DNA from: Desulfobacula toluolica Tol2
GTDB taxonomy: Bacteria; Desulfobacterota; Desulfobacteria; Desulfobacterales; Desulfobacteraceae
Direction: 5' to 3'
Assembly (NCBI RefSeq): GCF_000307105.1
Contig: NC_018645.1
Coordinates: 1,438,578-1,502,577 of the forward strand
Length of the DNA stretch: 64,000 bases
Shown here: one piece after another, positions 17,451-61,168 of the stretch
Layout of the letters: each line of letters opens with the position of its first letter
How positions within the stretch are numbered: position 1 is the stretch's first letter
Notes under the pieces: model-generated
What the model was told of the DNA's origin: nothing
Databases searched by the model: none
Seen by the model: only the letters and a program-made list of their open reading frames with translations
Made by a program: the position numbers and the translations under genes

Positions 17451-18953
17451 TTGAAAAAAGCCATGAATTCAACAAAACCATTTGATCCTTTTGTGTTCTG
17501 GGTTTCCGCCTCTGTGACCATCCTTTTTGTCCTTTGGTCCATCCTCTTTCCCAAGAATATGACCATCGTTATCAATGCTGTTTTCAGCTGGACCACCACC
17601 CAATGGGGCTGGCTCTATCTGTTGACCGTTTTTGTGCTGGTCATAGGCTGTTTTATGCTCATGGGACGAAAATACGGGTCCATGAAACTGGGACTTCCCG
17701 GCGACAGACCTGAATTTTCTAATTTTTCCTGGTTTGCCATGCTTTTCGGGTCTGCCATTGCCGCAGGCATTGTATTCTGGGGGCCTGCCGAACCAGCTTA
17801 CCATTATATGAGTCCGCCTCCCTATTTTGGCACAGATGCAAACACCCCGGCCGCCGGTGCCAATGCCATGACCTACTCTTTTTTTCACTGGGGCTTGAGC
17901 GCCTGGTCCATTTATGCCATGCTGACCATTGCCATTGGGCATGCCTGCTTTACCAGAAATCTTCCCTTAAAGTTTTCCAGCGCCTTCTACTATGTCATCG
18001 GCGACAGAATTTACGGCACCTGGGGAAAAATTCTGGATATTTTTGCCGTGTTCGCAACCCTGGGCGGCCTTGCCACTACCACGGGATTTGTGGCACTTCA
18101 GCTGTCAGCCGGTCTTAAATATCAATACGGCTTGCAACTGGGGCCTTCCAGCACCTATGCCATTATAGGAGTTCTAACCGCCATTTTCACTCTGTCTGTA
18201 TACACCGGACTTCAGAAAGGGGTAAAGTTTATCGGCGATATTAACATGTGGGTTTTTGTGCTGGTATGGTTTTTTATCCTGATCTTTGGTCCCACCATCT
18301 TCCTGATCAACCTGACCACCAATTCCCTTGGCCAGTATCTTCTTCATTTTGTTCCCATGAGCCTGTTTACGGCTCCGGGATTTGAAGGCAATTGGATCGG
18401 TTCCTGGACGGTTTTTTACTGGGCATGGTGGATGAGCTGGGCACCTTTTGTGGCTGTTTTTATTGCACGGATCTCCAAGGGAAGAACCATTCGCCAAACC
18501 GTTGCCGCCACCCTGATCCTTCCCACCCTGGGAAATTTTCTCTGGTACGGGGTTATCGGCGGTGCAGGCATTCATTTTAACGTCAGCGCCATCATGAAAG
18601 AACACGGTATGGAAAGCGCCATTTTCGCCATTGCCCAGAGCCTTCCCATGACCGGGATACTGTCTGTTGCACTGATTTTTCTTATCGGCACCTTCTTTTT
18701 AACCTCAGCCAATTCCGCAGCCATCTCCCTTGCCATGTTTGTTTCAGGCCATGAAAATCCGGGTCGGAACCTGAGAGCCTTCTGGGGAATTGCCCTGGGA
18801 GCTGTGGCAGCCGTTCTGGCCGGAAGCGGCAGCCTCAAAGCCATTCAGACCGCATCCATTGCAACGGCTTTTCCTCTGATGTTTTTGTTGCTGCTGGTAC
18901 TTTACGGAACATTCAGGGGGTTGAACCAATACAAAAAAGACAACCCGGCATAA
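17451..18953 (+). CDS. BCCT-family quaternary amine transporter 1
   Basis: Betaine/choline/carnitine-type carrier of 500 residues with 12 predicted membrane helices. Hallmarks are GIVFWGPAEPAYHY in helix 3 and the WTVFYWAWWMSWAPFVAVFIARISKGRTIRQ core that builds the tryptophan box for trimethylammonium substrates. The TTG start at 17451 is favoured because AGGAG lies 6 bases upstream; the ATG 12 bases later has poorer spacing. First gene behind the sigma-54 promoter and followed by two MttB-like genes, so it probably imports the methyl donor. Confidence 0.92.
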   Translation: MKKAMNSTKPFDPFVFWVSASVTILFVLWSILFPKNMTIVINAVFSWTTTQWGWLYLLTVFVLVIGCFMLMGRKYGSMKLGLPGDRPEFSNFSWFAMLFGSAIAAGIVFWGPAEPAYHYMSPPPYFGTDANTPAAGANAMTYSFFHWGLSAWSIYAMLTIAIGHACFTRNLPLKFSSAFYYVIGDRIYGTWGKILDIFAVFATLGGLATTTGFVALQLSAGLKYQYGLQLGPSSTYAIIGVLTAIFTLSVYTGLQKGVKFIGDINMWVFVLVWFFILIFGPTIFLINLTTNSLGQYLLHFVPMSLFTAPGFEGNWIGSWTVFYWAWWMSWAPFVAVFIARISKGRTIRQTVAATLILPTLGNFLWYGVIGGAGIHFNVSAIMKEHGMESAIFAIAQSLPMTGILSVALIFLIGTFFLTSANSAAISLAMFVSGHENPGRNLRAFWGIALGAVAAVLAGSGSLKAIQTASIATAFPLMFLLLLVLYGTFRGLNQYKKDNPA

Positions 18954-18963
18954 ATCATCTTTT

Positions 18964-18985
18964 CCGGGCCTTTTTTCCGGCCCGG
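18964..18985. promoter_or_regulatory. Intercistronic hairpin between BCCT and mttB
   Basis: CCGGGCC (18964-18970) and GGCCCGG (18979-18985) form a 7-bp GC stem with an 8-base loop rich in T. There is no T tract behind it, so it is more likely an mRNA processing or stability structure than a terminator. Confidence 0.45.
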
Positions 18986-19034
18986 GAGCTTATGCATTGA
19001 AGTGAGGGGATTGACCCTTACAGGAGCAAAGACA

Positions 19035-20456
19035 ATGTACGATCGAATGCAGGAACTGAGTGCAAAGAATATAAAAAAGATTCATGATGCCACCCTGGCC
19101 CTTCTGAAAAACAAGGGCGTTTCATTTAAGGATGAAGAGGCACTGGATATTTTTAAAGCAAACGGGCACAAGGTGGAGGGAACCATTGTGTTTTTTAAAG
19201 AATCCCATATTCAAAAAGCTTTAAAAACTGCACCCGGGCGATTCACAGTTCACGCCAGAAACCCGGAAAAAAGCATGATGGTCGGAGAAGATGATTTTGT
19301 CTTTCTGCCCGGATACGGCGCTCCTTTTATTATGGATGTCAATGGCAAACAGCGCCGGGCCACCATGGAGGATTATGATAATTTCTGCAAATTAATCCAG
19401 ACATCTGCTTACATTGACATGAATGGCTGGATGATGGTGGAACCGGTTGATATGCCACATGAAACAGTTCATCTGGATCTGAACCTGTCCAATATGCTTT
19501 TGTGCGACAAACCTTTCATGGGCAGCCCCATCTCTCGCCAGGGAGCTTTGGACGGCATTGAAATGGCCGGAATCCTCTGGGGCGGCAAGGAAAAGATCAT
19601 GGACAAGACCGTGTCTGTCTCTTTGATTAAAACCCAGTCTCCCTTGACTTTTTCCGGTGAAATGGCAGGTGCTTTTATCGAACTTGCCCGTCATAACCAG
19701 GCCTGTGCAGTGGCTTCCCTTGTCATGGCCAATGGTTTTGCTAACTTCAGCCTGGCTGGAATTCTGACTCTTCAGAATGCGGAAATCCTGGCTGGCATTA
19801 CCCTGGCACAGCTGGTCAGACCTGGAGTTCCCGTGATCTATGGGGCCACTTCTTCTGTCATGGACATGAAAACCGGCACTCTGTCCATTGGAGCGCCCGA
19901 ACTGTCCCGGAACATTCACCTGGTGGCTCAGATGGCAAGATTTTACAACCTGCCTTCCCGGTCCGGCGGCGGTTTGACCGATGCCTTGTGTGTGGATGCA
20001 CAGGCAGGTGTGGAGTCAACTCTTGCCCTTTCTACGGCTGCCAGAAGCGGGATTAATTTTATCCTTCATTCCTGCGGTATTCTGGGTTCCTATATGGCCA
20101 TGAGTTTTGAAAAATTTCTCATTGATGAGGAAGTCTGCGGAATGGTGCGAAATATGATCCGCCCCATGGTTCTTAACGATGATTCGATTGACCTTGGCCG
20201 GATCAAAGCCATGTGCGGCAACGATGCATACCTGACCCATCCCAAGGCTTTTCAGTTGCGCCGAACCGAATTTTTTGCCCCATCTCTAATGAATCGTAAA
20301 AATCCTGATGCCTGGGGCAGTCAAGGCAGGCAGCGGATTGATCAGATTGCAGAGGACAAGGTGGCCCAGCGCCTGGCATCATACGAGAAGCCGGACATTG
20401 ATCCGAAAATTGAAAAACAATTGACAGAATATGTTGAAAACCGAAAACACACATAA
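19035..20456 (+). CDS. MttB-superfamily methyltransferase (non-pyrrolysine)
   Basis: TIM-barrel corrinoid methyltransferase of 473 residues. The family signature around the catalytic region, SGGGLTDALCVDAQAG, has an ordinary sense codon where trimethylamine methyltransferase has the amber-encoded pyrrolysine. Non-Pyl members such as MtgB demethylate glycine betaine or related quaternary amines onto a corrinoid protein. Start at ATG 19035 with AGGAG 8 bases upstream. It lies between the two BCCT carriers; no corrinoid protein gene is present nearby. The precise substrate cannot be read from the sequence. Confidence 0.9.
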   Translation: MYDRMQELSAKNIKKIHDATLALLKNKGVSFKDEEALDIFKANGHKVEGTIVFFKESHIQKALKTAPGRFTVHARNPEKSMMVGEDDFVFLPGYGAPFIMDVNGKQRRATMEDYDNFCKLIQTSAYIDMNGWMMVEPVDMPHETVHLDLNLSNMLLCDKPFMGSPISRQGALDGIEMAGILWGGKEKIMDKTVSVSLIKTQSPLTFSGEMAGAFIELARHNQACAVASLVMANGFANFSLAGILTLQNAEILAGITLAQLVRPGVPVIYGATSSVMDMKTGTLSIGAPELSRNIHLVAQMARFYNLPSRSGGGLTDALCVDAQAGVESTLALSTAARSGINFILHSCGILGSYMAMSFEKFLIDEEVCGMVRNMIRPMVLNDDSIDLGRIKAMCGNDAYLTHPKAFQLRRTEFFAPSLMNRKNPDAWGSQGRQRIDQIAEDKVAQRLASYEKPDIDPKIEKQLTEYVENRKHT

Positions 20457-20510
20457 ATTTTTTTTCACGAACTTATTTTTTTTAAAACAAATCAAAAAGG
20501 AGATCAAACC

Positions 20511-21965
20511 ATGAATGACAGGGCTAATGAACTTTTCAAAGAGGGATTAAAGCATGAAGAAAGTTACGATTTTGAATCTGCAAAAAAAGTATACAAAGAA
20601 CTTCTGGCAAATGTTAAAGATTCAAAAACAGCAGAAAAAACAAGATCACGAATGGAGGATATGGATGACCTGATTGCTGAAAAAGAGATTTACAAACGCA
20701 TTGATGAAAACGGCAAAAGGGTTTTGACCGATATTGGCATCAATATTGCCGAAAGCCAGGAATTGATGGATATTCTTGTTGAGGCCGATGCCATTGATTT
20801 TGAAAGTGATACAGCAGTATTTGTTCCGCTGAAAAGAGATTTTATCGACAGATGCCTGGAAAATATCCCCCGGGAAATGCCTGAAGACCCAGGAATGAAC
20901 TGCTTTGGAACAGGTGCGACCCCTCCGTTTTTAAAGCGGCCCGGAGACGAAGAGCTGCGGGCGGCGAGCAAGGACGAATTTAAGCGTATTGTTCAGGTTG
21001 TGGGTGAACATTCCGATACTGCTGGGATTTTCAGTCTCCCTGTGGCTTTTGACAAGAGCATCTCCAGCTATGAGGTTGCAAAGCTCATGGAACAGGGGTT
21101 TGCGGGACTGAAAATGACCACAACCAAAGCCATGACCGATGATGAGATTCTTTTTTTAAAGGGTAAGGACCACTGGCTTGACGGAACCAGCCTGATTACC
21201 TCTCTTGCCCCCATGCCCACCATGGTTGACGCCTTTCTTCGAAGTGCCAGGACCGGCACAAATCTTCTTTTGCTGGATCTTACCATTGCAGGGGCTTCAG
21301 GGCCGGGAAGTCCGGAAGCTCTTCTGACCCAGATCCATGCCCAGGTTATGTTCATGATGGTATTGGCCCAGACGGTAAACCCGGGTGTTTCCTGCATGCA
21401 CGGCGGTATTCCCGGAGTCGTTGAAACCGGCGGCGACCTGTCTTACAGTTCCCGGCATCAGCCTCTTATCAATGCTGCCATGGCAAGGTTGAACACATGG
21501 ATTACAAAGTTCCCTTCAGCCCAGTCAGGGGGAAGCACAAGCATATCGGAAATGAATGAAACCGCTGTCATGGAATCTGAATTGAGCAGAAATACCTTGC
21601 GCAAATACGGGAGCCATATCATTCGTCATTCTTTGGGGGCAATGGGAAGCTTGAATTTTTTCAGTATTGAAAAATTTGTGGAAGATTGTGAACGGGAGAA
21701 AAGATCCTGTAAAATATTTAATGAAGCGCCCAAAGACAAGGGGATCATACCACTTTATTTTCCGGCTGATGACAAGACTCTGGACGGCATAAAAGAGATT
21801 GCTGAAAAAGGGAACCCAAAGAGTGCGGAACATACCCTGAGAAATGTTGAATCATTCATGAAATGGGAAAAAACCATTAATGATGCAGCAAGAAAAAAGC
21901 TCTACTATCCCCAGCTTAGCGACACGGTTATCGAACGTATCCGTAAAGGAGAAATGATTCCTTGA
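20511..21965 (+). CDS. Divergent MttB-superfamily protein with N-terminal helical extension
   Basis: Second TIM-barrel MttB-like protein, 484 residues. The first ~60 residues form a charged helical, TPR-like segment (ANELFKEGLKHEESYDFESAKKVYKELL) absent from standard MttB. The core shares VLTDIGINI, GATPPF and SGGSTSISEMNETAV-type positions, but identity to its neighbour is low. A strong AAAAAGGAGATC ribosome site precedes it. It follows the first mttB by 54 bp and is presumably the partner or an alternative-substrate paralogue. No pyrrolysine codon. Confidence 0.8.
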   Translation: MNDRANELFKEGLKHEESYDFESAKKVYKELLANVKDSKTAEKTRSRMEDMDDLIAEKEIYKRIDENGKRVLTDIGINIAESQELMDILVEADAIDFESDTAVFVPLKRDFIDRCLENIPREMPEDPGMNCFGTGATPPFLKRPGDEELRAASKDEFKRIVQVVGEHSDTAGIFSLPVAFDKSISSYEVAKLMEQGFAGLKMTTTKAMTDDEILFLKGKDHWLDGTSLITSLAPMPTMVDAFLRSARTGTNLLLLDLTIAGASGPGSPEALLTQIHAQVMFMMVLAQTVNPGVSCMHGGIPGVVETGGDLSYSSRHQPLINAAMARLNTWITKFPSAQSGGSTSISEMNETAVMESELSRNTLRKYGSHIIRHSLGAMGSLNFFSIEKFVEDCEREKRSCKIFNEAPKDKGIIPLYFPADDKTLDGIKEIAEKGNPKSAEHTLRNVESFMKWEKTINDAARKKLYYPQLSDTVIERIRKGEMIP

Positions 21966-21988
21966 TTTTCAATATGAAAAAGTAAAGG

Positions 21989-22070
21989 ATAATAACGGCC
22001 ATGGCAGATTGAGCCGCCACAACAAAGATTTAAAGTCTCTTTATGAATTTTTTAAGACTTTCATATAAAA
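21989..22070 (+). repeat. Dispersed two-hairpin repeat copy
   Basis: TAATAACGGCCATGGCAGATTGAGCCGCC, then CACAACAAA and a second hairpin AAAGTCT...AGACTTT ending TTTCATATAAAA. The second hairpin resembles that of the copy at 49.6 kb. It lies between mttB2 and BCCT2. Confidence 0.68.
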
Positions 22071-22104
22071 ATGGGCAAGCAAAGTTGAAAATACGGAGGA
22101 TGAT

Positions 22105-23661
22105 ATGACGGATAAGAAAATCCCCGGAATCAAAAGACTTTTCGGAAAAGAAATTGACACAAGGGTTTTGTACGGTGCCACAGCGCTTGCCCTGCCTTTT
22201 ATCATACTTGGATTTATTTCACCCGCCATGCTTGGAAAGGCCGGTTCGGCAGCCCTGGATCTGCTGACCGGCTCATTCAGCTGGCTTTATCTGATGAGTT
22301 GCAGCTTTTTTGTGGTTGCTGTGATTGGAATTGCATTGTCTCCACTGGGTAAAATAAAGCTTGGCCGGGATGATGAAACCCCTGAGTTTTCTTTTTTGAG
22401 CTGGTTTGCCATGCTTTTTTCGGCCGGCATGGGAATCGGGCTGATATTCTGGTCCTGTTCCGAACCCATGTATCATTTCATGTCACCGCCGGCAGGAGAG
22501 GCCGGAACGGCCGGAGCAGCACGACAGGCTTTTGAGATTTTTTTTTTCCACTGGGGGCTGCATGCCTGGGCCACATATATTGTTGTGGGCCTTCCAATGG
22601 CCTATTTCACATTTCGAAAGGGAAGGCCCGCCACCATTTCATCCTGCATTGGAACCGGGCCTGACCCTAAAAAAAATGTCGCCCTGGGCAACAGAACGGT
22701 TAACATCCTTGCCATCTGGGCCACAATAATGGGTGTTGTCACATCCCTTGGCATGGGAGCCATACAGATAAACAGCGGTCTTTCTCATTCCATGGGCATT
22801 TCGACAGGTCCGGTTCCAGCGGCGATTATCATTGCCGTAATCACGATTGTTTTTATTCTATCCGCACTGACAGGGGTTGCAAAGGGTATAAGAATCCTCT
22901 CTCTTATCAATGTGACCCTTATGGTCGTACTGCTGCTTTTTTTCTTTGTTTTAGGGCCGTTTAAGTATATTTTACATACTTTTTTCCAGGCGTTAACAGA
23001 TTATGCAAAAGATTTTGTATCTCTTTCCACAAGCTTTGTTTTATTTGATAATCCGGGCTGGACAAAATCATGGACGGTTTTCTACTGGGCCTGGTGGATT
23101 GCATGGGCACCCTTTGTCGGTGCGTTTATCGCAAGGATTTCAAGGGGAAGGACAATCCGGCAGTTTATTCTGGTTATTTTGCTGGCACCCACGCTTTTTT
23201 CCTATGTTTTTTCAACAGCCCTTGGCGGAACAGCCATTTATCTTGATCTGTTTACGAATACCTCCATTGGGGAAGCTGTGAAACAAAGCGTTGAAGTCGC
23301 ATTGTTTGAGACCCTCAGCCACCTTCCTCTTTATGGCCTCCTGGTTTTTTTTACCAATGTCCTGATCGCATCGTTTTTTATTACATCGGCTGATTCCGCA
23401 ACCTATGTCATCAGCCGCTACTCAACCGCCGGGCTTGAGCCGGGAAATCCAAGGGCAGGGAAACGCCTGATTATTTTCTGGGGAACAATTCTGGGAGGGC
23501 TTGCCATTGTTCTGATTTTTTCAGGCGGACTTTCATCTCTTCAGACAGCCTCTATTGTCGGGGCCTTTCCTTTTCTTATAATTATGTTTATTTTGTTGTT
23601 TGTTTTGATCAAAGAACTGATCAAAGACTATAAATCCATTCCTCCCACCACCGTGATTTAA
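22105..23661 (+). CDS. BCCT-family quaternary amine transporter 2
   Basis: Second BCCT carrier, 518 residues and 12 helices, with GLIFWSCSEPMYHF in helix 3 and WTVFYWAWWIAWAPFVGAFIARISRGRTIRQF in the core. Compared with the first carrier the start of helix 3 differs (CSEP versus PAEP), as in betaine carriers. The ribosome site GGAGG lies 5 bases before the ATG. It follows two mttB-like genes, perhaps under its own promoter since a repeat intervenes. Confidence 0.92.
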   Translation: MTDKKIPGIKRLFGKEIDTRVLYGATALALPFIILGFISPAMLGKAGSAALDLLTGSFSWLYLMSCSFFVVAVIGIALSPLGKIKLGRDDETPEFSFLSWFAMLFSAGMGIGLIFWSCSEPMYHFMSPPAGEAGTAGAARQAFEIFFFHWGLHAWATYIVVGLPMAYFTFRKGRPATISSCIGTGPDPKKNVALGNRTVNILAIWATIMGVVTSLGMGAIQINSGLSHSMGISTGPVPAAIIIAVITIVFILSALTGVAKGIRILSLINVTLMVVLLLFFFVLGPFKYILHTFFQALTDYAKDFVSLSTSFVLFDNPGWTKSWTVFYWAWWIAWAPFVGAFIARISRGRTIRQFILVILLAPTLFSYVFSTALGGTAIYLDLFTNTSIGEAVKQSVEVALFETLSHLPLYGLLVFFTNVLIASFFITSADSATYVISRYSTAGLEPGNPRAGKRLIIFWGTILGGLAIVLIFSGGLSSLQTASIVGAFPFLIIMFILLFVLIKELIKDYKSIPPTTVI

Positions 23662-26633: not shown

Positions 26634-27656
26634 TTATTTTATGTTTTGCCGGTATCCGCTTGGATTTTTTTTCTGCCAGTTCCAGGTATCCTGGCACATG
26701 TCGGCAAGTGTTTTGCTTGCTTCCCATCCAAGCGCTTTTTTTGCTTTGGCAGGATCAGCCCAGCAGGCAGCGATATCACCGGGTCTTCTGTCCACAATTT
26801 TATAAGGAATTTTTTTACCGCTTGCCTTTTCAAATCCTTTGATCATTTCAAGTACTGAATAGCCCTGACCGGTTCCCAGGTTATAAATCATCAGACCCTT
26901 ATGGGTCAACAGCTTGGGCAGGGTTTTGACATGGCCCAATGCCAGGTCCACCACATGGATAAAGTCTCTTACACCGGTGCCGTCCGGGGTGTCATAATCA
27001 TTTCCAAAGACACTGAGTCGAGGTAAGAATCCCATGGCTACCTGGGCAATATAAGGTACTAGATTATTTGGAATGCCAAGCGGGTCTTCTCCGATATCAC
27101 CGCTTTGATGGGCGCCCACAGGGTTAAAATATCTTAACAACGCAATGTTCCAGCTTTTATCCGAGTGGTAAAGATCTTTGAGTATCTCTTCTATCATCAG
27201 CTTTGTCCGGCCATATGGATTGGTTGCCGACAGGGGAAACTCTTCTGTTATGGGAAGGGAAGCCGGATCTCCGTAAACCGTTGCAGACGATGAGAACACA
27301 ATGTTTTTTACATTAAATTCAGTCATGACTTCAAGCAGGTTCAAGGTGCCGGTGATATTGTTGTGAAAATATTTCAGCGGGATTGATACGGATTCCCCCA
27401 CGGCTTTTAGTCCGGCAAAATGAATGACCGCATCTATTTTATGTTCAGCAAAAACAGCTGCAATCTGTTGTTTATTCAAAAGATCTGCTTTGTAGAATTC
27501 CAGTGATTTTTTGGTAATTTGTTTTACCCTGTTCAAGGATTCTTCAGAACTATTGGAAAGATTATCCAGGACAACGACATCATGGTTTTCATTTAAAAGT
27601 TCAACACAGGTGTGGCTTCCGATATATCCGGCACCACCGGTTACCAGTAGTTTCAT
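26634..27656 (-). CDS. galE: UDP-glucose 4-epimerase GalE
   Basis: Short-chain dehydrogenase-type epimerase of 340 residues interconverting UDP-glucose and UDP-galactose. The Rossmann motif GGAGYIGSH is at the N-terminus; the catalytic pair is S-S-ATVYG and YGRTK (Tyr-x-x-x-Lys). [14 protein letters not shown] and the C-terminal [16 protein letters not shown] are typical of GalE. Its ATG overlaps the TGA of the upstream U32-like gene. It probably supplies galactose for the LPS made in this window. Confidence 0.95.
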
Positions 27657-28717
27657 AGATAGTCCTTATACTGTTTAAGTTTAAATGGTTTTTGTCTTGC
27701 TGTTTTTAAAAATAAATCACGGCACACATTACAGTTTTTGCAATTTTTTGTACAGCTTGTCAGCAGCTTAAAAAAGCCGGTGTCAAGTTTTTTATTTTCA
27801 ATATGGTACACGTCGGATAACCAGTGGGTGGCATCCATGAGGTTAAACAGATTGCCGTTATATGATTTTTCAACATATGCGCTGATGCATTGGCACAGAA
27901 AATTTACCCCCAATGTTCTTCCGCAAAGTTTGATTGTATCGGCTGTTTGTGTATACATATCAATATCTTCGGGGCGAATAAAAGGCGATTTTAAAAAAAA
28001 AGCAGGTGTTTTGTAAAACCAGGCATGACAGCCAATGGTGCGGTTTGTCTGAAAGCTTTTATCCGGTATAAGTCCTGTGTTTGAAAACGAGATTTGAGCG
28101 TCATGGGTTAATTTGAACGGACAATGATATATGCAGCCTTCATTGGCAAGCAGTTCAATTTTGATTTGGTTGCAGGCTTTTTTGATTTCACTGCCGGTCT
28201 TTTCAAGCTGCCGGATGTTTCTGTTCAAGGAACGGTCAAGGACAATTTTTTCGGGAAATTTGAACCTTGTCTGCCGGATAAATTCAAACATTGACGCAGC
28301 TTTTTGATAAGAATCAATCATAAAATTGATGCCCGGAACCGCCTCAAGAAAGCCTGTTATATCTCTTTTTGTGGCGGATAGTGCATTCAGAAGGTATGCG
28401 TCACAAAAAACAATCCCGTTGATATTTGCATGGGAGACCAGGTACTCAAGTTTGTCCAGAGTTTGATTTAAAAATTGTGTGTCATGATAGAGACCGGGAT
28501 TTATAAATCGGGAATTGAGCAAACAGTATTTTTTAACAGATTTAAGGTGCTGTAATCCTTTTGAAAGTTCATGGGGCGTGGCGTTTTTGCATCTCATCCT
28601 GGAGTCCAGAACCTGGTCTGAGTGAAGAGAAAAATAGACTGATTCAATATTCCGGGTTTTATTTTTCAGAAAATTTGTGTATTTTCCATCTGGTATGAAC
28701 GGGACTGACAGTTTCAT
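27653..28717 (-). CDS. U32 peptidase-family-like protein
   Basis: Protein of 354 residues from ATG 28717 ([13 protein letters not shown]). The central [20 protein letters not shown] matches the U32 signature E-x-x-x-N-E-G-C-x-x-x-C-P, and more cysteines ([11 protein letters not shown], about 330-343) could ligate an iron-sulfur cluster, as in UbiU/UbiV- and TrhP-type proteins. Many U32 proteins act in tRNA or quinone hydroxylation rather than proteolysis, and the target here is unknown. It is translationally coupled to galE. Confidence 0.7.
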
Positions 28718-28867
28718 GCTCGGTATTTTACAATAACCGTATGATTCAAAGCAAGAGAAATAAAGGAAAACAGCCTCATAACATTGACAGGCACAAAGTG
28801 TATGGTTAAAATTAGAGTATTCAGGCAATGTATACCTGAAAAATAAATAAATAAGGAGAGTTGAACA

Positions 28868-29185
28868 ATGATTGAGTTAACAGATCCTGCAAAAACGCAG
28901 ATCAATGACTATTTCCAGGGCAGGGAACCCACTCCCATTAGAATTTTTCTTAACTCAGGCGGCTGAGGTGGTCCCTCGCTTGCTATGGCTCTGGATGAGC
29001 CAAAAGATACGGATGACAGCTTTGATGTTAAAGGCTTGAAATTTGTTGTTGATAAAGAATTTATGGAAAAAGCTGAAACTATTAAAATTGATTTTACCGG
29101 GATGGGATTTCATCTCGACTCCAATATGGATCTGGGACAATCAGGATGCTCCAGTTGCGGTTCTGGTGGTTCCTGCGGAGATTAG
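28868..29185 (+). CDS. HesB-like selenoprotein (Sec at codon 33, TGA 28964-28966)
   Basis: HesB/IscA-family protein of 105 residues read through an in-frame TGA. ATG 28868 has GGAG 10 bases upstream (28854-28857). The frame reads MIELTDPAKTQI, then NSGGUGGPSLAMALDEP with TGA in the place of the first conserved IscA cysteine, and is open to TAG 29183-29185. The end GCSSCGSGGSCGD carries the C-terminal cysteines. Naive calling would start at 28985 and lose the first third. HesB-like selenoproteins are an established prokaryotic Sec family, and selB is present in this window. It may bind an Fe-S cluster; its role is unproven. Confidence 0.9.
28967..29003 (+). promoter_or_regulatory. Predicted bacterial SECIS element
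   Basis: Directly after the TGA, TGGCTC (28986-28991) and GAGCCA (28997-29002) pair perfectly around a five-base loop TGGAT that carries the apical GG. The stem begins 19 bases behind the TGA, within the range seen for SelB-recognised hairpins. Confidence 0.7.
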
Positions 29186-29200
29186 CGCTTTAGATTGTTC

Positions 29201-29241
29201 AAAAGAGAAGGTGTTTTCCTTGTGTGAACACCTTCTCTTTT
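29201..29241. terminator. Bidirectional terminator between convergent genes
   Basis: AAAAGAGAAGGTGTT (29201-29215) and AACACCTTCTCTTTT (29227-29241) form a perfect 15-bp stem with A and T tracts on its two sides. It serves the selenoprotein gene and the convergent exonuclease gene, whose stop overlaps it. Confidence 0.88.
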
Positions 29242-30070
29242 AGTAGTATTTGTGTTTTAACCTTTGAATGGTTTTCAGATCTGCTTTAAACGGATTTTTT
29301 GGTTTGGGCGGTTCTTCTATCGTATGGGTGTTAAAAAACGGGGTGTTTTGGATGTTCAAATTATAGGATTTGATCATCAAAGTTTCAAGATTGATAACAT
29401 CTTCAATATTATACGCTAACAGCGTTTCAAGTGCTTTATCATTGTTATTGAGTTGATACTCGTTCCATAACAGTATAGCAAAATATCCGTCCACACCATC
29501 CAGGTCTTCCCTGTCCATACCCAAAGCTTTTTCACATTTTTTTAATCCCCCTTTGAATCCGAGATGTTGCAGTATATACCGTAAGTCAATCTGGGCGTGG
29601 GGCAGTTTTACGTTAAAGTATTCTTCAATGAACGGAATATCAAAACTTCTGCCATTGTATGTGATAAGGATCTTGTAATTTTTAATTTCATCTAAAAAAG
29701 CGCCAAGATTTTTTCCTTGAACAAAATATTTGATATCCTTGCCGTTGTACAGGGCAATGGTTGTGATCTGTGAAGATGTTTCCAGGCCAGTTGTTTCAAT
29801 GTCCAGGTAGGCGCAGGAGTGCCTGAATTCCGGAAACAGCCTGAAATGCTGATTTGAGGGGAGTTGTGCTTCAAAAAAGCCGGGGTGATTATTTTCCAGA
29901 TGTTGAGTGGATTCTTTTGCAAATCTTTTTATATCTTCAATCTTTGAGACAGACAGGTTTAAACAAGAAAAACAGTTGTAATCCTTCCAGGTTAATACAT
30001 TGGACTGCCATATTTTTTTTTCTGTTACAGGCCCGATCCCCGGGATATGAATAAATGTATTTACGAGCAT
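29240..30070 (-). CDS. DEDD-type exonuclease, YprB/ribonuclease H-like
   Basis: Protein of 276 residues. The N-terminus carries a helix-hairpin-helix-like segment (HIPGIGPVTEKKIW); the nuclease fold shows YLDIETTGL (Exo I), TYNGRSFDIPFI (Exo II) and AYNIEDVINLE (Exo III region). ATG 30070 has AAGGAATG six bases upstream and is preferred to the ATG at 30076. It resembles the ribonuclease H-like (YprB) exonuclease family; the DNA or RNA target is unknown. Confidence 0.82.
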   Translation of the reverse strand: MLVNTFIHIPGIGPVTEKKIWQSNVLTWKDYNCFSCLNLSVSKIEDIKRFAKESTQHLENNHPGFFEAQLPSNQHFRLFPEFRHSCAYLDIETTGLETSSQITTIALYNGKDIKYFVQGKNLGAFLDEIKNYKILITYNGRSFDIPFIEEYFNVKLPHAQIDLRYILQHLGFKGGLKKCEKALGMDREDLDGVDGYFAILLWNEYQLNNNDKALETLLAYNIEDVINLETLMIKSYNLNIQNTPFFNTHTIEEPPKPKNPFKADLKTIQRLKHKYY

Positions 30071-30220
30071 AATCATTCCTTATTATTAAAGTGATTTTCT
30101 TTATATCCTGAATGGAGAAAATATAATAGTATGAAACAAAAATCAGGCTTGGGTTGACCATGAATTTTCATCATGGTAGCGTTGACAAAATTTTCAAATT
30201 CAATTGATCAGGATTTCGTC

Positions 30221-31069
30221 ATGAAAAGATTTGTCTTTAATTTTGTTTTATTTTTGATTTGTGTTTTTTTTCTTATTTCCATTACCGCCTGCAAAGAGGA
30301 ACAAAAAGTTCAAAATGAACTGGCTGTAGGAAATTGGGTACACGTTAAGAACAGAACCTATATTCTTTTGATTCTCAATCCAAAGGGAGAATGGCAATCT
30401 TCAATCAGGATTGCTGATGCAAGCTCAAAGATTGTTGAAGCCAAAGGGAATGCAAAAGGAATGTGGTATATTGAAAAAGAGCAGATGATTTTTACTGTTA
30501 CAGAGTCGGATATTGAAGATGTCTGGGAAAAAAATGCCACCATTTTTTTTGATATTATTGAATTAACTGAAACGCTAATCAGGCTCAAGGATGAATCCGG
30601 CCGTATCTGGGTTTGGGGTCCTACAACTTCTCGCAAATCCGGTGCATCTGAAGATGATTTGACTTCAGTGATACCTATGGGAGTTGTTGCGGTCAATTTG
30701 AATAAAAACAGATCAAATGATAAAGACCGTTATTTGTGTTTAAACCTGAATCTGATACTCAAGGAACTTATGCCCGGCCAGAAAATGCCTCCCATTCATC
30801 CCAAAGCCCGTGAAGCTGCTATTATTTTTTTTAGTTCCCTTGTATTCAATGATGTTAAGGACTTTGACCGTATCAAACAGCAGATCGTAAAACTTATGGA
30901 TGTTTTAAATCCTTACCTGGACGGTTTTGTTAAAGAGATTTCAATTGAACATGTTCTTGTGGCAACTGAAATTGACAAAGTGGAAGAATTCATCATAGAA
31001 CATGACCTGACAAATGAACCGGTTTCTGAGGCGGGTGAAGAAGGAAAAGAAGGATCTGAAGGAAAATAA
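30221..31069 (+). CDS. Lipoprotein with FliL-like C-terminal domain
   Basis: From ATG 30221 the product has 282 residues with a lipoprotein signal: a basic start, hydrophobic stretch and lipobox ISITACKEE. The middle is beta-rich (NWVHVKNRTYILLILNPKGEWQ). The C-terminal ~100 residues (LNLNLILKELMPG through EISIEHVLVATE) resemble FliL, which in flagella supports stator function. No flagellar genes are near. The very end is acidic and glycine-rich (GEEGKEGSEGK). Confidence 0.6.
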   Translation: MKRFVFNFVLFLICVFFLISITACKEEQKVQNELAVGNWVHVKNRTYILLILNPKGEWQSSIRIADASSKIVEAKGNAKGMWYIEKEQMIFTVTESDIEDVWEKNATIFFDIIELTETLIRLKDESGRIWVWGPTTSRKSGASEDDLTSVIPMGVVAVNLNKNRSNDKDRYLCLNLNLILKELMPGQKMPPIHPKAREAAIIFFSSLVFNDVKDFDRIKQQIVKLMDVLNPYLDGFVKEISIEHVLVATEIDKVEEFIIEHDLTNEPVSEAGEEGKEGSEGK

Positions 31070-53386: not shown

Positions 53387-55303
53387 TTAAACTTTCCGTC
53401 TTAACTGCCGTGTATCGCCCACCCGTATGGTCAGGTTGACGGTATCAAAGTATTCGATCAAAGGGATGACATATTTTCTGGACACTCCGGTCATCTCCTT
53501 AAACTCGGGTGTGGTGATGGATTCATTGTCTTTTAAGAATTTAATCAGCCGCTGTTCAAGCCTGGTGATCTCTTCGGCATCAAAATAGAGGTCGTCTTTT
53601 GTTTTGACAATGGATGTTTCATTGATCATCATGTGGAGAACATCTGTTGCCGTCTTTTTATCCAGATCCAGATCCTGGCAGATGGTTCTGAAAAAGGGCG
53701 GTGTCAACCCTGACGTTTGATAGATTTTCTTGATTTTGTCTTTGACTTTGTTTTGATCCACCTGGAGCGCCACTTTGTGAGTGGATAATTTGACAATGTT
53801 TTTGTCCAGAATTATCAGATTTTCCTTGGACAATTTTGTGAAAAGCAGATTAAAAAATTTTACATCATCAATATACTGGAACTTGGATTTAAGCTCCTGG
53901 GTCGGCATGCCTTCTTTTAAAGGATTATCACTATGGTAGGCCTCAAGCTTCCGGATGATTTTTTCTTTGAATTTATCAAAAAAAGCACCATTCACATAAA
54001 TCTGCCTGTCTTTGTCAGTCTGGACAACCTGTTGCTTGGCAAGCAGTTTCTGCAGATTTGCCGCCAGTTTCTTGTCCGGGATATTGGTCATGACACGAAG
54101 CTGGGCAAAAGACAGGCCCTGGTATCCTTTTAAACTGAGAAAAAACAAAACAGTCTCTTCCTGATCTTCCAGAAGAAGATTCTCCAGTCCCTGGATTACG
54201 GTTTTATCCAGCTGTTTATGCTTTTGGGAGGCTGGATTTAATATGGCACCGCCGCCAATTGTTTTTACCGGTGAATAACTTCGGATCACATATCGGTCAT
54301 CCTTGATACAGCAGACAGGGGACTCCAGGCGGAACTGAACACAGGCCTCATCTCCGGGCAACAGCTCTTCTCTGTCAAGCAGTATCATGTATCCCAGTAT
54401 CTCACTGGTTCCGGAATGAAATCTTATTCTGGTTCTGTTTTTAGCCGGTTTTGCATTGCTTTTTAAATAATGAAAATGAGCATCCACCATATAGCTTTCA
54501 ATCAAGGTATTGGGTGTGGACAGGATATCTCCCCGGCTGACCGATTCTTTGTCCAGTCCCTGGAAATTAATGGCGGTCCGCGTACCCGCACCGGCCGTAT
54601 CAACACCTGAGCTGTGAACCTGGATTCCCCGGACTTTGGAGACAATCTGTTTGGGATAAACCATGATATCGTCACCGACATTGATGCTGCCCGAGGTCAG
54701 GGTCCCGGTTATCACGGTGCCAAATCCTTTCATTGAAAATACACGGTCCACCGGCAGCCTGAAGATGGAAGAATATTTTCTTTCAGGAAGTTTGCTGCAG
54801 ATCTCTTCCAAAGTTTTTATGAATTGATCAAGCCCTTCATGTGTGACGGATGAAACAGGGATAACGGGTTTGTCTTCGAGAAAAGTGCCCTGCACAAAAT
54901 CATTGATGTCTTCAAGGGCCAGTTCCAACAGGTCTTCATCCACCATATCGGTTTTGGTCAGGGCAATCATGCCATGCTCAATCCCCATGAGGTTGCAGAT
55001 TTCCATGTGTTCCCTGGTCTGAGGCATAACCCCCTCATCTGCAGCAATAACCATTGTGACCACATCAATCCCGCTGGAACCTGCCACCATATTTTTTACA
55101 AATTTTTCATGGCCCGGCATGTCCACGATACCGATATGCTGCCCATTGGGAAGATCAAGAGAGGCAAACCCCAGTTCAATGGTAATGCCCCGTTCCTTTT
55201 CTTCTTTGAGCCTGTCTGTTTCAATGCCTGTCAATGCCTTTACAAGGCTTGTTTTTCCATGATCAATGTGTCCTGCCGTTCCTAAGATGATATTTTTTTC
55301 CAA
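53387..55303 (-). CDS. selB: Selenocysteine-specific elongation factor SelB
   Basis: Delivers Sec-tRNA to UGA codons marked by SECIS hairpins. It has 638 residues from TTG 55303, where the GTPase begins (LEKNIILGTAGHIDHGKTSL); AGGAT lies 10 bases upstream, and longer starts run through the upstream small gene. Motifs are GHIDHGKT (G1), DMPGHEKF (G3) and TKTD (G4), then two beta-barrels and four winged helices (about 370-638) that bind SECIS RNA, ending VGDTRQLRRKV. The window also encodes a Sec protein; selA, selC and selD are not seen. Confidence 0.94.
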   Translation of the reverse strand: MEKNIILGTAGHIDHGKTSLVKALTGIETDRLKEEKERGITIELGFASLDLPNGQHIGIVDMPGHEKFVKNMVAGSSGIDVVTMVIAADEGVMPQTREHMEICNLMGIEHGMIALTKTDMVDEDLLELALEDINDFVQGTFLEDKPVIPVSSVTHEGLDQFIKTLEEICSKLPERKYSSIFRLPVDRVFSMKGFGTVITGTLTSGSINVGDDIMVYPKQIVSKVRGIQVHSSGVDTAGAGTRTAINFQGLDKESVSRGDILSTPNTLIESYMVDAHFHYLKSNAKPAKNRTRIRFHSGTSEILGYMILLDREELLPGDEACVQFRLESPVCCIKDDRYVIRSYSPVKTIGGGAILNPASQKHKQLDKTVIQGLENLLLEDQEETVLFFLSLKGYQGLSFAQLRVMTNIPDKKLAANLQKLLAKQQVVQTDKDRQIYVNGAFFDKFKEKIIRKLEAYHSDNPLKEGMPTQELKSKFQYIDDVKFFNLLFTKLSKENLIILDKNIVKLSTHKVALQVDQNKVKDKIKKIYQTSGLTPPFFRTICQDLDLDKKTATDVLHMMINETSIVKTKDDLYFDAEEITRLEQRLIKFLKDNESITTPEFKEMTGVSRKYVIPLIEYFDTVNLTIRVGDTRQLRRKV

Positions 55304-55323
55304 TGGTATAAAAATCCTAAATT

Positions 55324-55497
55324 TTATTCTGGTTTCTTTTTTCTGAAAAAAGCCATGCCATAGGCCAGTCCGACCAGGATGAGTCCTGTGACAAAGCCGT
55401 AGTAAATTTCCCAATCCGGCCTGAACAGTCGGGTCAGGATAATGCCGAAGACAAGGCCTAAAATAAGCCTGACTAAAAATATTAAAAGTGCATTCAT
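55324..55497 (-). CDS. Small membrane protein, 57 residues
   Basis: ATG 55497 has AAAGGAAC upstream; longer frames lack a site. Two hydrophobic helices (LLIFLVRLILGLVFGIILT and YYGFVTGLILVGLAYGMAFF) with a short RPDWEI turn and a basic end FRKKKPE. Twenty bases before the selB start, probably co-transcribed. Function unknown. Confidence 0.65.
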   Translation of the reverse strand: MNALLIFLVRLILGLVFGIILTRLFRPDWEIYYGFVTGLILVGLAYGMAFFRKKKPE

Positions 55498-55692: not shown

Positions 55693-55769
55693 GGTGGGTG
55701 TAGCTCAGTTGGTAGAGCACTAGGTTGTGGCCCTGGTGGCCGCGGGTTCAAATCCCGTCACTCACCCCA
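55693..55769 (+). tRNA. tRNA-His (anticodon GTG)
   Basis: A cloverleaf can be drawn: acceptor GTGGGTG (55694-55700) with CACTCAC, D arm GCTCAGTTGGTAGAGC, anticodon stem CTAGG/CCTGG with GTG at 55727-55729, T arm GCGGG-TTCAAAT-CCCGT, C at 73 and encoded CCA. The extra G at 55693 opposite C73 is the G-1 identity mark of tRNA-His. Its 3' end borders the integrated element. Confidence 0.96.
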
Positions 55770-55814
55770 TTAACTTTCTTTTATTTCAATAGCTTATCCT
55801 AATTTTTTTATCCT

Positions 55815-56744
55815 CTAAGAAGTTATCATCTTCAGGTTGCACCTGTTGAACTGCTTTGGTTCCCCCTGAATGGCATCATTTTTATCAGGAAGCATATACC
55901 GTTTGAAAGCATCTGAAATGTGGCCTGTGACTCCCCGTTGGATCTGTTCCGGGGTCAAGACCTGTCCCAGGGCGGTAACCGTCGAATGTTTGGTGCCGCC
56001 GTAAAGATCAACCCCTTCTATATTCAGATTTTTACAGGCCCGGTTCCACCACATCCTGAATTGTTTTTGTCCAAACCGGGTTCCAGCCTTAACGCTTGGC
56101 TTTGCTTTGACATGACGGAAAAAATACATGTCCGGCATTCCTTTTGGGCCCCGGATCTCCCTGATGAGGTCCGCATGTTCCGGTAACAGGTGGATGAATT
56201 TCGGGATACCTTCTTTTGTATCCGGAAATAAAATCCATTTTTCCCTGCGAACCACCCAGGCCCAAAAATTATGGAGAACGGTTTGATAGTTCTTTTTTGT
56301 CTTACCGCTTGCTTTCAAATCATCAAAAAAGTCTTCAATTTCCGGCTCTGCAATTTCTTTAATCTGCATCTGGTCCCAGGCTTTTCCAGCCACATTCAAA
56401 ACATGGGTTATGTGCTGGATCTGCTTTTTGCCTATACCATCTTTTTTCTTATGGGCAAGGAACTTTTTGCGTAAGGCATAAAAAGATAAAGGCTGATCCT
56501 TTGCCCATTCTCTTTGATCAAACTGGCCCTTGTCGGTCTGGACTCGCAAATATGTTAAATGCCTTTCAGACTCAGCAACGGTCTTAAATCTCTTGTGGTG
56601 TTCTTTCCCAAAACGGACCTCACAATTATTGAGCCAAACCACTTTGGGATGTTCCTGGCAAGCAAGGATTCCACGACCCTCCACATACTTCACGACCCCG
56701 CCACACTCAAAACATTTTTGCGCGGTGTATATTGAACCTTTCAT
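55815..56744 (-). CDS. Tyrosine integrase with deleted catalytic core
   Basis: Integrase-like protein of 309 residues; full-length relatives have about 385. The ATG at 56744 has a strong AGGAGG. The N-terminus has a zinc-ribbon-like segment (CFECGG...ACQEH), then a core-binding domain. At about residue 175 the sequence jumps from FWAWVVRREKWILF to PDTKEGIPKFIHLLPEH, skipping the ~75 residues that hold Arg-I and the beta-hairpin Lys. The later VDLYGGTKHSTVTAL has Lys where relatives have Arg-II. The terminal tyrosine (FKRYM) remains. It is most likely inactive. It lies 45 bp from tRNA-His. Confidence 0.8.
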   Translation of the reverse strand: MKGSIYTAQKCFECGGVVKYVEGRGILACQEHPKVVWLNNCEVRFGKEHHKRFKTVAESERHLTYLRVQTDKGQFDQREWAKDQPLSFYALRKKFLAHKKKDGIGKKQIQHITHVLNVAGKAWDQMQIKEIAEPEIEDFFDDLKASGKTKKNYQTVLHNFWAWVVRREKWILFPDTKEGIPKFIHLLPEHADLIREIRGPKGMPDMYFFRHVKAKPSVKAGTRFGQKQFRMWWNRACKNLNIEGVDLYGGTKHSTVTALGQVLTPEQIQRGVTGHISDAFKRYMLPDKNDAIQGEPKQFNRCNLKMITS

Positions 56745-56858
56745 GCATAAACCACCTCCTTTCCATTTGCAACTGGATTCTGAAGGTTGATTGTATGTTG
56801 GGGGCCGGTGCGGAGTCAAATTTTATCTCTTTTTAAATGATCCTAAATTTATATAAGG

Positions 56859-57467
56859 TTAGCGATTCAAGGGATTATGCATCCCTGCATGATCTTCGTA
56901 GGACTGTACGCTGTGAAGATAAATCAAAGTGGTACTCACATCCTGATGGCCGGCTAAAAATTTCAGATCAACCAGCTTTACCCCGGCTTTGGCCAGCATG
57001 GTGAATGCCGTATGCCTTAAGGCATGGGCACTGATGACTTTATCCCCATGGCTGATACCCGCTTTTTCCACATATTTTTCAATCATGTACTCTATCGACC
57101 TGGTGGTTAATCGTTTATTTTCCCGGACCTGATCCCAGCGGATCACAAGACCTCCCTGGGAAACCTGGTACCGAAATCCCACAAAGAGCGGTGTGGCAGA
57201 TTCAAAGTTGATATTGCAATGCTCCATCCATTCATCAAAGGCCTGAAGAGCTTTCCCATTTAAAATGATATCAGTATCAGCCCGCCTGCCGATCTTTCCT
57301 TTTCGGTCCCTGATCCATAACTTTTGCTGACCTTTTACCCGTTCTGTTTCAAGATCCTGGTATGTCAGTTTGCAGACTTCGCCTACCTGCAAGCCATAGG
57401 TGAGCATGAGCCTCAAAATGGCATAGTCCCGTTTTCCGATAAGGGTTCGCCGGTCCGGTTGTCGCAT
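56859..57467 (-). CDS. Truncated tyrosine recombinase, catalytic domain only
   Basis: Protein of 202 residues covering the XerC/D-like catalytic domain. The Arg-I position reads GLQVGEV instead of GLRVxEL, while HALRHTAFTML (HxxR), AGHQDVSTTLIYLH (box III and tyrosine) are intact. Coding-like sequence continues upstream of the ATG (YYTVLSSQEAKKIM) to a stop at 57510-57512. The core-binding domain is missing. Loss of Arg-I suggests it cannot cleave DNA on its own. Confidence 0.8.
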   Translation of the reverse strand: MRQPDRRTLIGKRDYAILRLMLTYGLQVGEVCKLTYQDLETERVKGQQKLWIRDRKGKIGRRADTDIILNGKALQAFDEWMEHCNINFESATPLFVGFRYQVSQGGLVIRWDQVRENKRLTTRSIEYMIEKYVEKAGISHGDKVISAHALRHTAFTMLAKAGVKLVDLKFLAGHQDVSTTLIYLHSVQSYEDHAGMHNPLNR

Positions 57468-57490
57468 TATTTTTTTTGCTTCCTGGCTGC

Positions 57491-57607
57491 TTAAGACCGT
57501 GTAATATCCTTAAAATTCTGAGATTGATTGACAAGGGCTCGAATTTTCCACGCCTGTTTTTCCGTGATACTTTCGAAAATTGGTTTGCTTTTGCTTAAAA
57601 TCTTCAT
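57491..57607 (-). pseudogene. Out-of-frame N-terminal piece of the recombinase
   Basis: A 38-codon frame (MKILSKSKPIFESITEKQAW, then KIRALVNQSQNFKDITRS) ends at 57491 and overlaps in another frame the coding stretch leading into the recombinase at 56859-57467. A single-base shift near 57500-57510 would join them, so I read it as the start of a frameshifted gene. A small separate gene is also possible. Confidence 0.5.
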
Positions 57608-57648
57608 TTTTCCTTTTGTTCTGCCCTTATATAGGGGGGGCTTTTTTC

Positions 57649-57793
57649 TGCATCACCATTGGTGGTTATGCAGTGGTGATGCAAAAAAAATATGCATCAC
57701 CACTCTTTTTGAGGCTCTTGTATCTCTAAATCTTAAATAAAAACAAAAACTTAATTTAAATAAAAAAATAAAGTGGTGATGATGGTTATGCAC
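57649..57793. repeat. Iteron-like cluster of GTGGTGATGCA repeats
   Basis: Copies in both directions: TGCATCACCA (57649-57658), GTGGTTATGCA (57662-57672), GTGGTGATGCA (57673-57683), TGCATCACCAC (57693-57703) and GTGGTGATGATGGTTATGCAC (57773-57793). The third and fourth form a perfect 11-bp inverted repeat with a 9-base A/T spacer; an AT-rich stretch lies at 57720-57772. Position between recombinase and primase genes suggests a replication origin, arm-type sites or an operator. Confidence 0.6.
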
Positions 57794-57843
57794 TTTCCAA
57801 GAATGCTCCGCCCAAAATATTTTATATTTTATCCGGGTCATCA

Positions 57844-58179
57844 TTAGAGATCTCCATCAACTTTTTTTTCCAGTAAGTGTCTATATTGCCCCCTTGATAT
57901 CTTATGTCTGATACTCACCGTCCAACCGGCCTCTTCCAAAATAGATTTTGAGTTGGACAACCGTGAACCCAAAACGCCTGGAGCTGCAAAAGGGTTGGGG
58001 ATATTTTTGTTTTTGGAAATCATGCTGAATGCAGTGCATAGCTCCTTTGCGGTTGCGAGAAAGCTTATTTTAGAAATTTCACCTGTAATCTCTCTGGCAA
58101 TCTTAACTGATTGAATTCCATAAAATTCCACAAAGTCATCCCTTTTTAACTGGGCACATTCAGAGAATAAAATTTCCAT
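57844..58179 (-). CDS. Unknown element protein downstream of the primase
   Basis: Protein of 111 residues overlapping the primase gene by 34 bases. It is basic and helical, with FYGIQSVKIAREITGEISK and a C-terminal SRLSNSKSILEEAGWTVSIRH that resembles a winged-helix tail. No family is recognised. It might be a separated C-terminal domain of the primase/ATPase, since the frame changes just where one would expect that protein to continue. Confidence 0.5.
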   Translation of the reverse strand: MEILFSECAQLKRDDFVEFYGIQSVKIAREITGEISKISFLATAKELCTAFSMISKNKNIPNPFAAPGVLGSRLSNSKSILEEAGWTVSIRHKISRGQYRHLLEKKVDGDL

Positions 58180-60113: not shown

Positions 60114-60163
60114 TTTGCTTTGTCGCCTTTCCTGATCTATGTCCTGTTAATCCTCTTAACCTC

Positions 60164-60218
60164 TAAAAAAACAAAGGCCGGATAAAAGATATCCCGGTAT
60201 GGATACCTTTTATCCGGC
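60164..60218 (-). terminator. Intrinsic terminator
   Basis: GCCGGATAAAAG (60177-60188) and CTTTTATCCGGC (60207-60218) form a perfect 12-bp stem; on the minus strand it is followed by CCTTTGTTTTTTT. It ends transcription from the gene at 60226-60816, just before the primase. Confidence 0.85.
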
Positions 60219-60225
60219 TGGGTGG

Positions 60226-60816
60226 TTATGATTGCTCCTTGACAACCTGGGGCATTGTTACTATTTTAGAGTTGTCCTGTGGATCAACACTATTTTTTGA
60301 AGCCGCTGTCTCTGCCTGGTCAGCGGCTTTTTCCTTTTCCCGTTCAGGCACCGGTGAGGACTTGGAAAACAAATCCTTCAAGCTCATAAAATCATCCCGA
60401 ACAACCTTTGCTTTTGGGTATTCATCGCCAAAGGCGGTAATCACGGCGTTGAGCTTTTTTATGGCATGATGAATTTCCCTGGCAGTTTCTTCTTTAGATC
60501 TATTAAACCGTCCATATCGTATACCCTCGTATTCGCATTGTGCGTCAGTGATAATGGATTCCGGGCTTTGGTCAAATTTTGAGACAATCTCATCAATTAA
60601 TCCTTCCTGCTTTTCAATGTACAGTTCAACGATTCTGTTCAAGCTGCTCCTATAGTCTGATGCATCTGCAAAGCCGTTTTCGAATACTTCAAGGTCAGCA
60701 TGTTCCATAAGGACTCCAAGTGTCTTTATGGCAAGATTGTGGCCCAGCATTTCATTTCTGAATTCATCAATATCAAATCCGGTGAATTTTTCTGGTTCAA
60801 AAGTTCCTGTAAGCAA
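60226..60816 (-). CDS. Unknown element protein, 196 residues
   Basis: TTG start at 60816 with GAGGAG upstream. Acidic, helical protein: EFRNEMLGHNLAIKTLGVLMEH near the start, then VELYIEKQEGLIDEIVSKF and EETAREIHHAIKKLNAVITAF, a disordered tail rich in Ala, Glu and Lys (about 150-196). Unrecognised. It has its own terminator and is one of several small genes between primase and Rha. Confidence 0.62.
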   Translation of the reverse strand: MLTGTFEPEKFTGFDIDEFRNEMLGHNLAIKTLGVLMEHADLEVFENGFADASDYRSSLNRIVELYIEKQEGLIDEIVSKFDQSPESIITDAQCEYEGIRYGRFNRSKEETAREIHHAIKKLNAVITAFGDEYPKAKVVRDDFMSLKDLFSKSSPVPEREKEKAADQAETAASKNSVDPQDNSKIVTMPQVVKEQS

Positions 60817-60889
60817 GATATTTCTCCTCTAATACTCAAATACTTTTACTGTCTGTCTGTTGTTATTTGGCCGTCATTCCGGATAAAGG

Positions 60890-61084
60890 TCATGACGACA
60901 CGTTATTAATATGTTTTACGGTTTTGGCCCGCATGGATAAAAACTCCCCGATGGTAAGCTCTTTCCAGGTTTTTCCAGGGGGCAGGCACGAAGTCATTCC
61001 GGCGGTTGCCCATTGGGGCATATCTGCTATCTGTCCTATCTGGATAGCGATTTCCACAAGTTCCTTGTGTTGCTTTTCACACAT
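60890..61084 (-). CDS. Small element protein, 64 residues
   Basis: MCEKQHKELVEIAIQIGQIA opening, then an MPQWATAGMTSCLPPGKTW region and a basic end. A perfect AGGAGG ribosome site lies about 10 bases upstream, which supports a real gene despite its size. Function unknown. Confidence 0.6.
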   Translation of the reverse strand: MCEKQHKELVEIAIQIGQIADMPQWATAGMTSCLPPGKTWKELTIGEFLSMRAKTVKHINNVSS

Positions 61085-61168
61085 TTTTTATTCCCTCCTG
61101 TCTGGCCGACCGCCGCGGATCACGATCAATGGGTGTTCAAATCTCTGATATTGTTTGCCAAAACATGC

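Follow-up and report, generated by a model that had tools for sequence, protein, structure and literature searches.

We find that a gene on the forward strand of the window (the whole stretch of 64,000 nucleotides of Desulfobacula toluolica Tol2 DNA analysed here) very probably encodes a selenoprotein of the IscA/HesB fold, subfamily NF038090, in which the in-frame UGA at codon 33 is predicted to be decoded as selenocysteine (Sec). The gene comprises 105 codons from ATG 28868 to the stop codon TAG 29183–29185 and is interrupted by one in-frame TGA, which lies inside the motif SGGUGGPSLA; start, length, codon and motif are as a sequence-only reading of the window had described them. In an ORF list with a minimum of 60 amino acids, the sole entry in this frame is a 66-aa fragment at 28985–29185, the same fragment that standard gene calling had been expected to give. 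The accompanying remark that the gene is easy to miss is true of a plain list of ORFs; NCBI has a subfamily model, NF038090. Reading through UGA-33 corrects the interpretation of one gene. A frame with a single TGA is by itself not rare, because nine frames in the 64-kb window, the HesB-like gene included, pass a simple filter for TGA-interrupted frames; the other eight were unconvincing by eye. Coordinates and evidence are collected in Table 1.

Table 1 Features of the HesB/IscA-like gene, its flanks and selB (window positions)
Feature	Position	Strand	Evidence
HesB/IscA-like selenoprotein gene, 105 codons	28868..29185	+	NF038090 117.5 bits (cut-off 85), PF01521 (Fe-S_biosyn) 32 bits (cut-off 26.3)
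UGA codon 33, inferred Sec	28964..28966	+	aligned codon TGA 138, TGC 43, TGT 22, other 0 (203 distinct homologues)
Ribosome-binding site AAGGAGAG	28853..28860	+	ends 7 nt before ATG; from sequence
SECIS hairpin UGGCUC-UGGAU-GAGCCA, within coding sequence, codons 40–45	28986..29002	+	loop offset and 5-bp core conserved in Sec genes
Cys-rich C-terminal tail CSSCGSGGSCGD: C94, C97, C103, candidate cluster ligands	29147..29182	+	conservation in 40 aligned proteins; pLDDT under 50
Promoter-like site TTGACA-17-TAAAAT, 11/12	28784..28812	+	consensus scan; weak evidence
16-bp hairpin 3′ of gene, possible terminator common to convergent gene	29201..29241	.	fold z = −4.79, 0/200 shuffles as stable
selB, selenocysteine-specific elongation factor	53387..55414	-	TIGR00475 about 358.7–358.8 bits (cut-off 242.25), SelB winged-helix domains

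Residues 1–96 of the protein align to positions 1–101 of the 101 in the NCBIfam model NF038090 (IscA_HesB_Se), and the Pfam family PF01521 is also matched. Against TIGR01911 (HesB_rel_seleno) the protein scores 32.9 bits, under the cut-off of 66.35, and the gene is not filed there; scores against the IscA, SufA and ErpA equivalog models are far below their cut-offs. NF038090 has matches in 52 of the 59 genomes of the taxonomic family, each with a score over the cut-off, and in 34 of the 35 family genomes whose completeness is 90% or more and whose contamination is 5% or less. Across the phylum there are matches in 172 of 297 genomes, of which 130 exceed the cut-off; eight of 14 control genomes match, none of them over the cut-off.

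We compared codon 33 among the homologues that a profile of this protein and the hits of a phmmer search recovered, with E values of 1e-8 or better, in loci L001–L227, so that distant relatives may be missed. The loci comprised all Cys copies listed in the family, some Sec copies, and Cys or tandem copies chosen from the phylum; because they were partly chosen, neither the 138:65 ratio of Sec to Cys genes nor the 17/186 loci with tandem copies (see below) is a rate. Each of the 232 aligned hits has a residue at codon 33, and in all 203 distinct homologues this residue is Sec or Cys.

Decoding of UGA by way of a SECIS element and SelB is established. SelB carrying Sec-tRNA(Sec) would bind the hairpin whose loop begins 25 nt past UGA-33, and the codon would be decoded as Sec in place of termination, yielding a 105-residue protein. 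Searches of the whole genome (one contig, 5,197,905 bases) returned a complete selA, selB, selC and selD set: a tRNA-Sec with anticodon UCA (TCA in DNA; 76.5 bits, cut-off 47), selA (605.6 bits, cut-off 267.9), selD (360 bits, cut-off 125), which has its own in-frame TGA followed by a hairpin, and selB, claimed at 53.4–55.3 kb and located there with a score over the cut-off (Table 1). The sequence-only reading had named two findings as counting against itself, an absence of homologues with Sec or Cys at codon 33 and a genome without selA, selC or selD; we observed neither.

In the hairpin, bases 28986–28991 pair with 28997–29002 around the loop UGGAU (28992–28996). A gap of 19 nt, the distance given by the earlier reading, separates the TGA from the stem, and one of 25 nt separates it from the loop. 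Bacterial SECIS elements have a G among the first two bases of the apical loop, as does this one. The spacing falls within the 16–37 nt after the UGA stated for SECIS apical loops in PMC10778597. Folding of this region, which had been proposed as a check, recovers the hairpin, which taken alone is no more than mildly unusual: 9/200 and 14/200 dinucleotide shuffles are equally stable in two tests. Homology, with codon 33 and the hairpin both conserved, places the case far beyond chance. An Rfam search of the window at gathering scores returned just one tRNA (tRNA-His by ARAGORN) and no family in support of the SECIS, so that the SECIS case rests on conservation within the protein family.

We defined a SECIS-like hairpin as one with a stem of at least 4 bp and a loop of 3–14 nt whose first or second base is G. 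The loop of the best such hairpin begins exactly 25 nt past the UGA in 135 of the 138 Sec genes, and the median energy is −7.6 kcal/mol in Sec genes versus −0.9 kcal/mol in the 65 Cys genes. Some hairpin at −3 kcal/mol or better is found in 19/65 Cys genes, at scattered offsets; the single Cys gene with a loop at offset 25 (L211) has a different loop of 10 nt. The position of the 5-bp core GGCUC/GAGCC is paired in 135/138 Sec genes compared with 1/65 Cys genes (L217). Across the six stem pairs in 133 distinct Sec stretches, pairing is seen in 739 of 798 cells, a count that falls to 136–449 when one arm is slid by 1–3 bases, whereas 63 distinct Cys stretches give 185 of 378 cells, and 119–175 when slid. 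True double changes in the stem are few (C-G to U-A six times, G-C to U-A once, G-C to A-U once), so the argument is carried by conservation and not by covariation. In a synonymous-recoding test, 52/138 Sec genes beat 95% of their recodings, this gene among them (0.027); the test is weak per gene, partly through the presence of the frozen stem codons in the codon pool, and conservative because the pool is drawn from the same Sec genes. Three Sec genes (L081, L084 and L109) are without the conserved hairpin and may have another SECIS, be decaying or contain an assembly error. The Cys homologue L217 keeps a SECIS-like stem, with the loop UAGAU and not UGGAU, possibly a fossil SECIS.

The stem also appears to constrain the coding sequence. 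Comparing only genes with the same residue at the codon, we find GCT at codon 41 in 125/126 Sec genes versus 20/50 Cys genes, CTG at codon 42 in 133/133 versus 22/58, GAT at codon 43 in 115/132 versus 30/63, and GAG at codon 44 in 126/133 versus 23/41, where p-values assume independent sequences although these are related. Codons 35, 36, 38 and 39, upstream of the stem, are variable in both groups; the stem codons are frozen in Sec genes only. Residue 45 is P in 114, S in 17, L in 4, A in 2 and Q in 1 of the 138 Sec proteins, and K in 33, A in 13, P in 9, S in 1 and another residue in 9 of the 65 Cys proteins, so that P, S or L occurs in 135/138 Sec proteins versus 10/65 Cys homologues. Both Sec proteins with A45 are without the hairpin. 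The preference for P, S or L with Sec apparently arises because the codon of residue 45 contributes to the 3′ arm of the hairpin.

A tree of 201 of the 203 homologues (omitting L089, which changes frame in its later part, and the distantly related, IscA-like L117) rests on few columns and leaves many forks unresolved. At least 14 Sec/Cys changes, in either direction, are required on the best, unrooted tree, seven of them forced by well supported branches; 17 are counted on a tree of the same 201 sequences with residues 33 and 41–45 masked. On well supported branches of the masked tree, the hairpin goes with Sec in 6–7 of 7 independent Sec/Cys pairs and none shows the opposite (median p 0.0156). 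The same seven-pair comparison for residue 45 is not significant, a mean of 5.4 of 7 pairs going the same way (median p 0.0625) and a single opposite pair occurring in 2 of 200 pairings. We tentatively propose, at somewhat less than an even chance, that the in-frame SECIS dictates a protein residue (45) besides codons, that Sec-to-Cys conversion frees both RNA and residue, and that Sec and Cys copies lying side by side in several lineages may be isoforms that respond to selenium, or subunits that act together in a single carrier. Literature searches on whether bacterial SECIS elements constrain codons or residues returned few papers, which is not proof of absence. The 203 homologues constitute a natural experiment in which, for a SECIS inside a coding region, the constraint from the RNA can be told apart from that of the protein.

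Sec and Cys copies stand side by side on one strand, about 0.4–1 kb apart, in 17 of 186 loci of this partly chosen sample (L208–L213, L181, L187, L223, L120–L122, L129, L136, L139, L142 and L214). The genome of D. toluolica Tol2 itself contains a Cys paralogue (C1:3391530–3391838) that is 41% identical and scores 89.5 bits against NF038090, narrowly over the cut-off of 85. By eye, the paralogue is preceded by ORFs resembling a 4Fe-4S subunit and an FAD/NAD-binding reductase subunit (L002 91–2322; C1:3390030–3393338) and followed by another small ORF, a setting unlike that of the Sec gene.

Two other readings of the TGA were weighed against decoding as Sec. If the HesB gene had decayed, the TGA would be a nonsense mutation, with no product longer than the 66-aa fragment that starts at ATG 28985, which agrees with a plain ORF listing, where just this fragment appears, and with the presence of a Cys paralogue elsewhere in the genome. 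However, 138 of the 203 distinct homologues share this TGA, 51 of the 52 genomes with a match in the family (by our count) carry a copy holding a single TGA, the frame past the TGA is open, and the C-terminal cysteines and the hairpin are conserved; on these grounds we reject the pseudogene as barely credible. It is likewise very improbable that the UGA is read through by a near-cognate tRNA, or as another amino acid, without SECIS and SelB. The comparative data do give a Sec/Cys exchange and not the identity of the amino acid, but the genome holds the Sec machinery, the hairpin is tied to the TGA at a fixed offset and is missing with Cys, and by a simple rule 58 of the same 138 Sec genes terminate at a TGA, so that UGA is seemingly not read through generally. 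Read-through of this kind was rejected on the machinery, the TGA-linked hairpin and the TGA stops, and we retain Sec as the predicted residue 33.

The long ORFs flanking the gene (27653–28828 and 29240–30076) are on the opposite strand, and the upstream promoter-like site together with the strong downstream hairpin suggests a one-gene transcript. Between 28600 and 29400, five promoter-like sites were found versus 2.1 expected from shuffles. A rule-based terminator scan, whose loop limit is 8, lists none here; the loop of the hairpin at 29201–29241 is 9. The neighbours within 26634–31069 are a galE-like ORF (by eye), a 391-aa ORF, an RNase_H_2 gene and a 298-aa ORF, which recur near the gene in 38, 24, 12 and 30 of 72 related loci, respectively, many of these loci being incomplete; the 391-aa and 298-aa ORFs have no Pfam family at E 0.001. 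Elsewhere in the window, two 484-aa ORFs without internal stop lie between two ORFs resembling BCCT betaine carriers by eye (17451–23661), the first 484-aa ORF being MTTB (PF06253, 467.2 bits). At 55694–62101, a tRNA-His is followed by integrase-like, primase-like and antirepressor-like ORFs (by eye), possibly an integrated mobile element.

Sequence matches in the PDB include E. coli IscA (1s98/1r94) and AQ_1857. We obtained an AlphaFold2 model from 40 aligned proteins (39 of 40 relatives selected from 58, with L089 omitted) that has a mean pLDDT of 81.4, with residues 93–105 under 50. A Foldseek search with the predicted fold returned 1x0g_A, an IscA with a [2Fe-2S] cluster (E 1e-6, TMq 0.61), and 1s98_A (TMq 0.67). 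The A-type carriers IscA, SufA and ErpA have three cluster cysteines, the last two in a C-terminal CxC. Sec33 aligns with the first cluster cysteine, as the earlier reading had it; in IscA this position is Cys35, which we take to be a cluster ligand. The protein departs from the three-cysteine/CxC pattern, with Sec33 in first place and a tail of C94-x2-C97 plus C103, in which C94 and C103 are invariant and C97 is conserved in at least 90% of the 40 aligned proteins.

By alignment, Sec33 would replace the first cluster cysteine of A-type carriers, and the protein probably binds or hands on an Fe–S cluster, or iron, via Sec33, C94, C97 and C103. We regard an A-type Fe–S carrier with Sec as cluster ligand as the likeliest role, on a narrow balance of probability; against it, the protein lacks the CxC of IscA, pLDDT values in its tail are under 50, and the tested neighbours are not Fe–S assembly genes. 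A substantial chance, though short of even, goes to Sec33 serving thiol/selenol redox chemistry, sulphur/selenium transfer or metal binding instead of cluster carriage, an alternative that bears on the role only. It draws on a C-terminal motif unlike the CxC of IscA and on a review that suggests redox functions for most uncharacterised prokaryotic selenoproteins (PMC13188914); against it stand the IscA fold, the position of Sec33 opposite the first cluster cysteine in the alignment, and the absence of UxxC or CxxU at Sec33 in the protein sequence. Why an Fe–S-carrier-like protein of sulphate reducers prefers selenium at a cluster-ligand position is a testable question.

Published accounts of HesB-like selenoproteins go back to 2005 or earlier (PMC1242214), in keeping with the earlier statement that the family is known, and it is well supported that the gene adds a clean, ordinary member to this widespread selenoprotein family. 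A 2006 survey (PMC1794560) gives 11 HesB-like proteins and two Sec-to-Cys events, together with a Cys gene of Desulfitobacterium hafniense that has a remnant SECIS-like structure, and a 2016 survey (PMC5029168) gives 90 HesB-like proteins in 86 organisms; across these surveys, Deltaproteobacteria are among the listed carriers and Sec-to-Cys conversions are reported. PMC1914089 (2007) includes Desulfovibrio vulgaris DVU_1382 as HesB-like and describes HesB selenoproteins as falling in two clusters because the sequences are short and diverged. The HesB-like selenoprotein of Methanococcus maripaludis has been identified through mutagenesis and 75Se labelling, its function there being called not clear (PMC11097638).

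Compared with its NF038090 relatives, the gene has its TGA at the same aligned position, and we found no substantive difference. Its Sec, in U-G-G-P, fits the motif UxGP given for HesB-like proteins in a 2026 review (PMC13188914); two reviews list the HesB-like selenoproteins under TIGR01911, whose cut-off this gene misses. With E. coli IscA and SufA the protein has a common fold and a Sec33 aligned with the first cluster cysteine, but it differs from them in Sec for Cys, in a GGUGGP loop, and in a CxxC...C tail where they have CxC.
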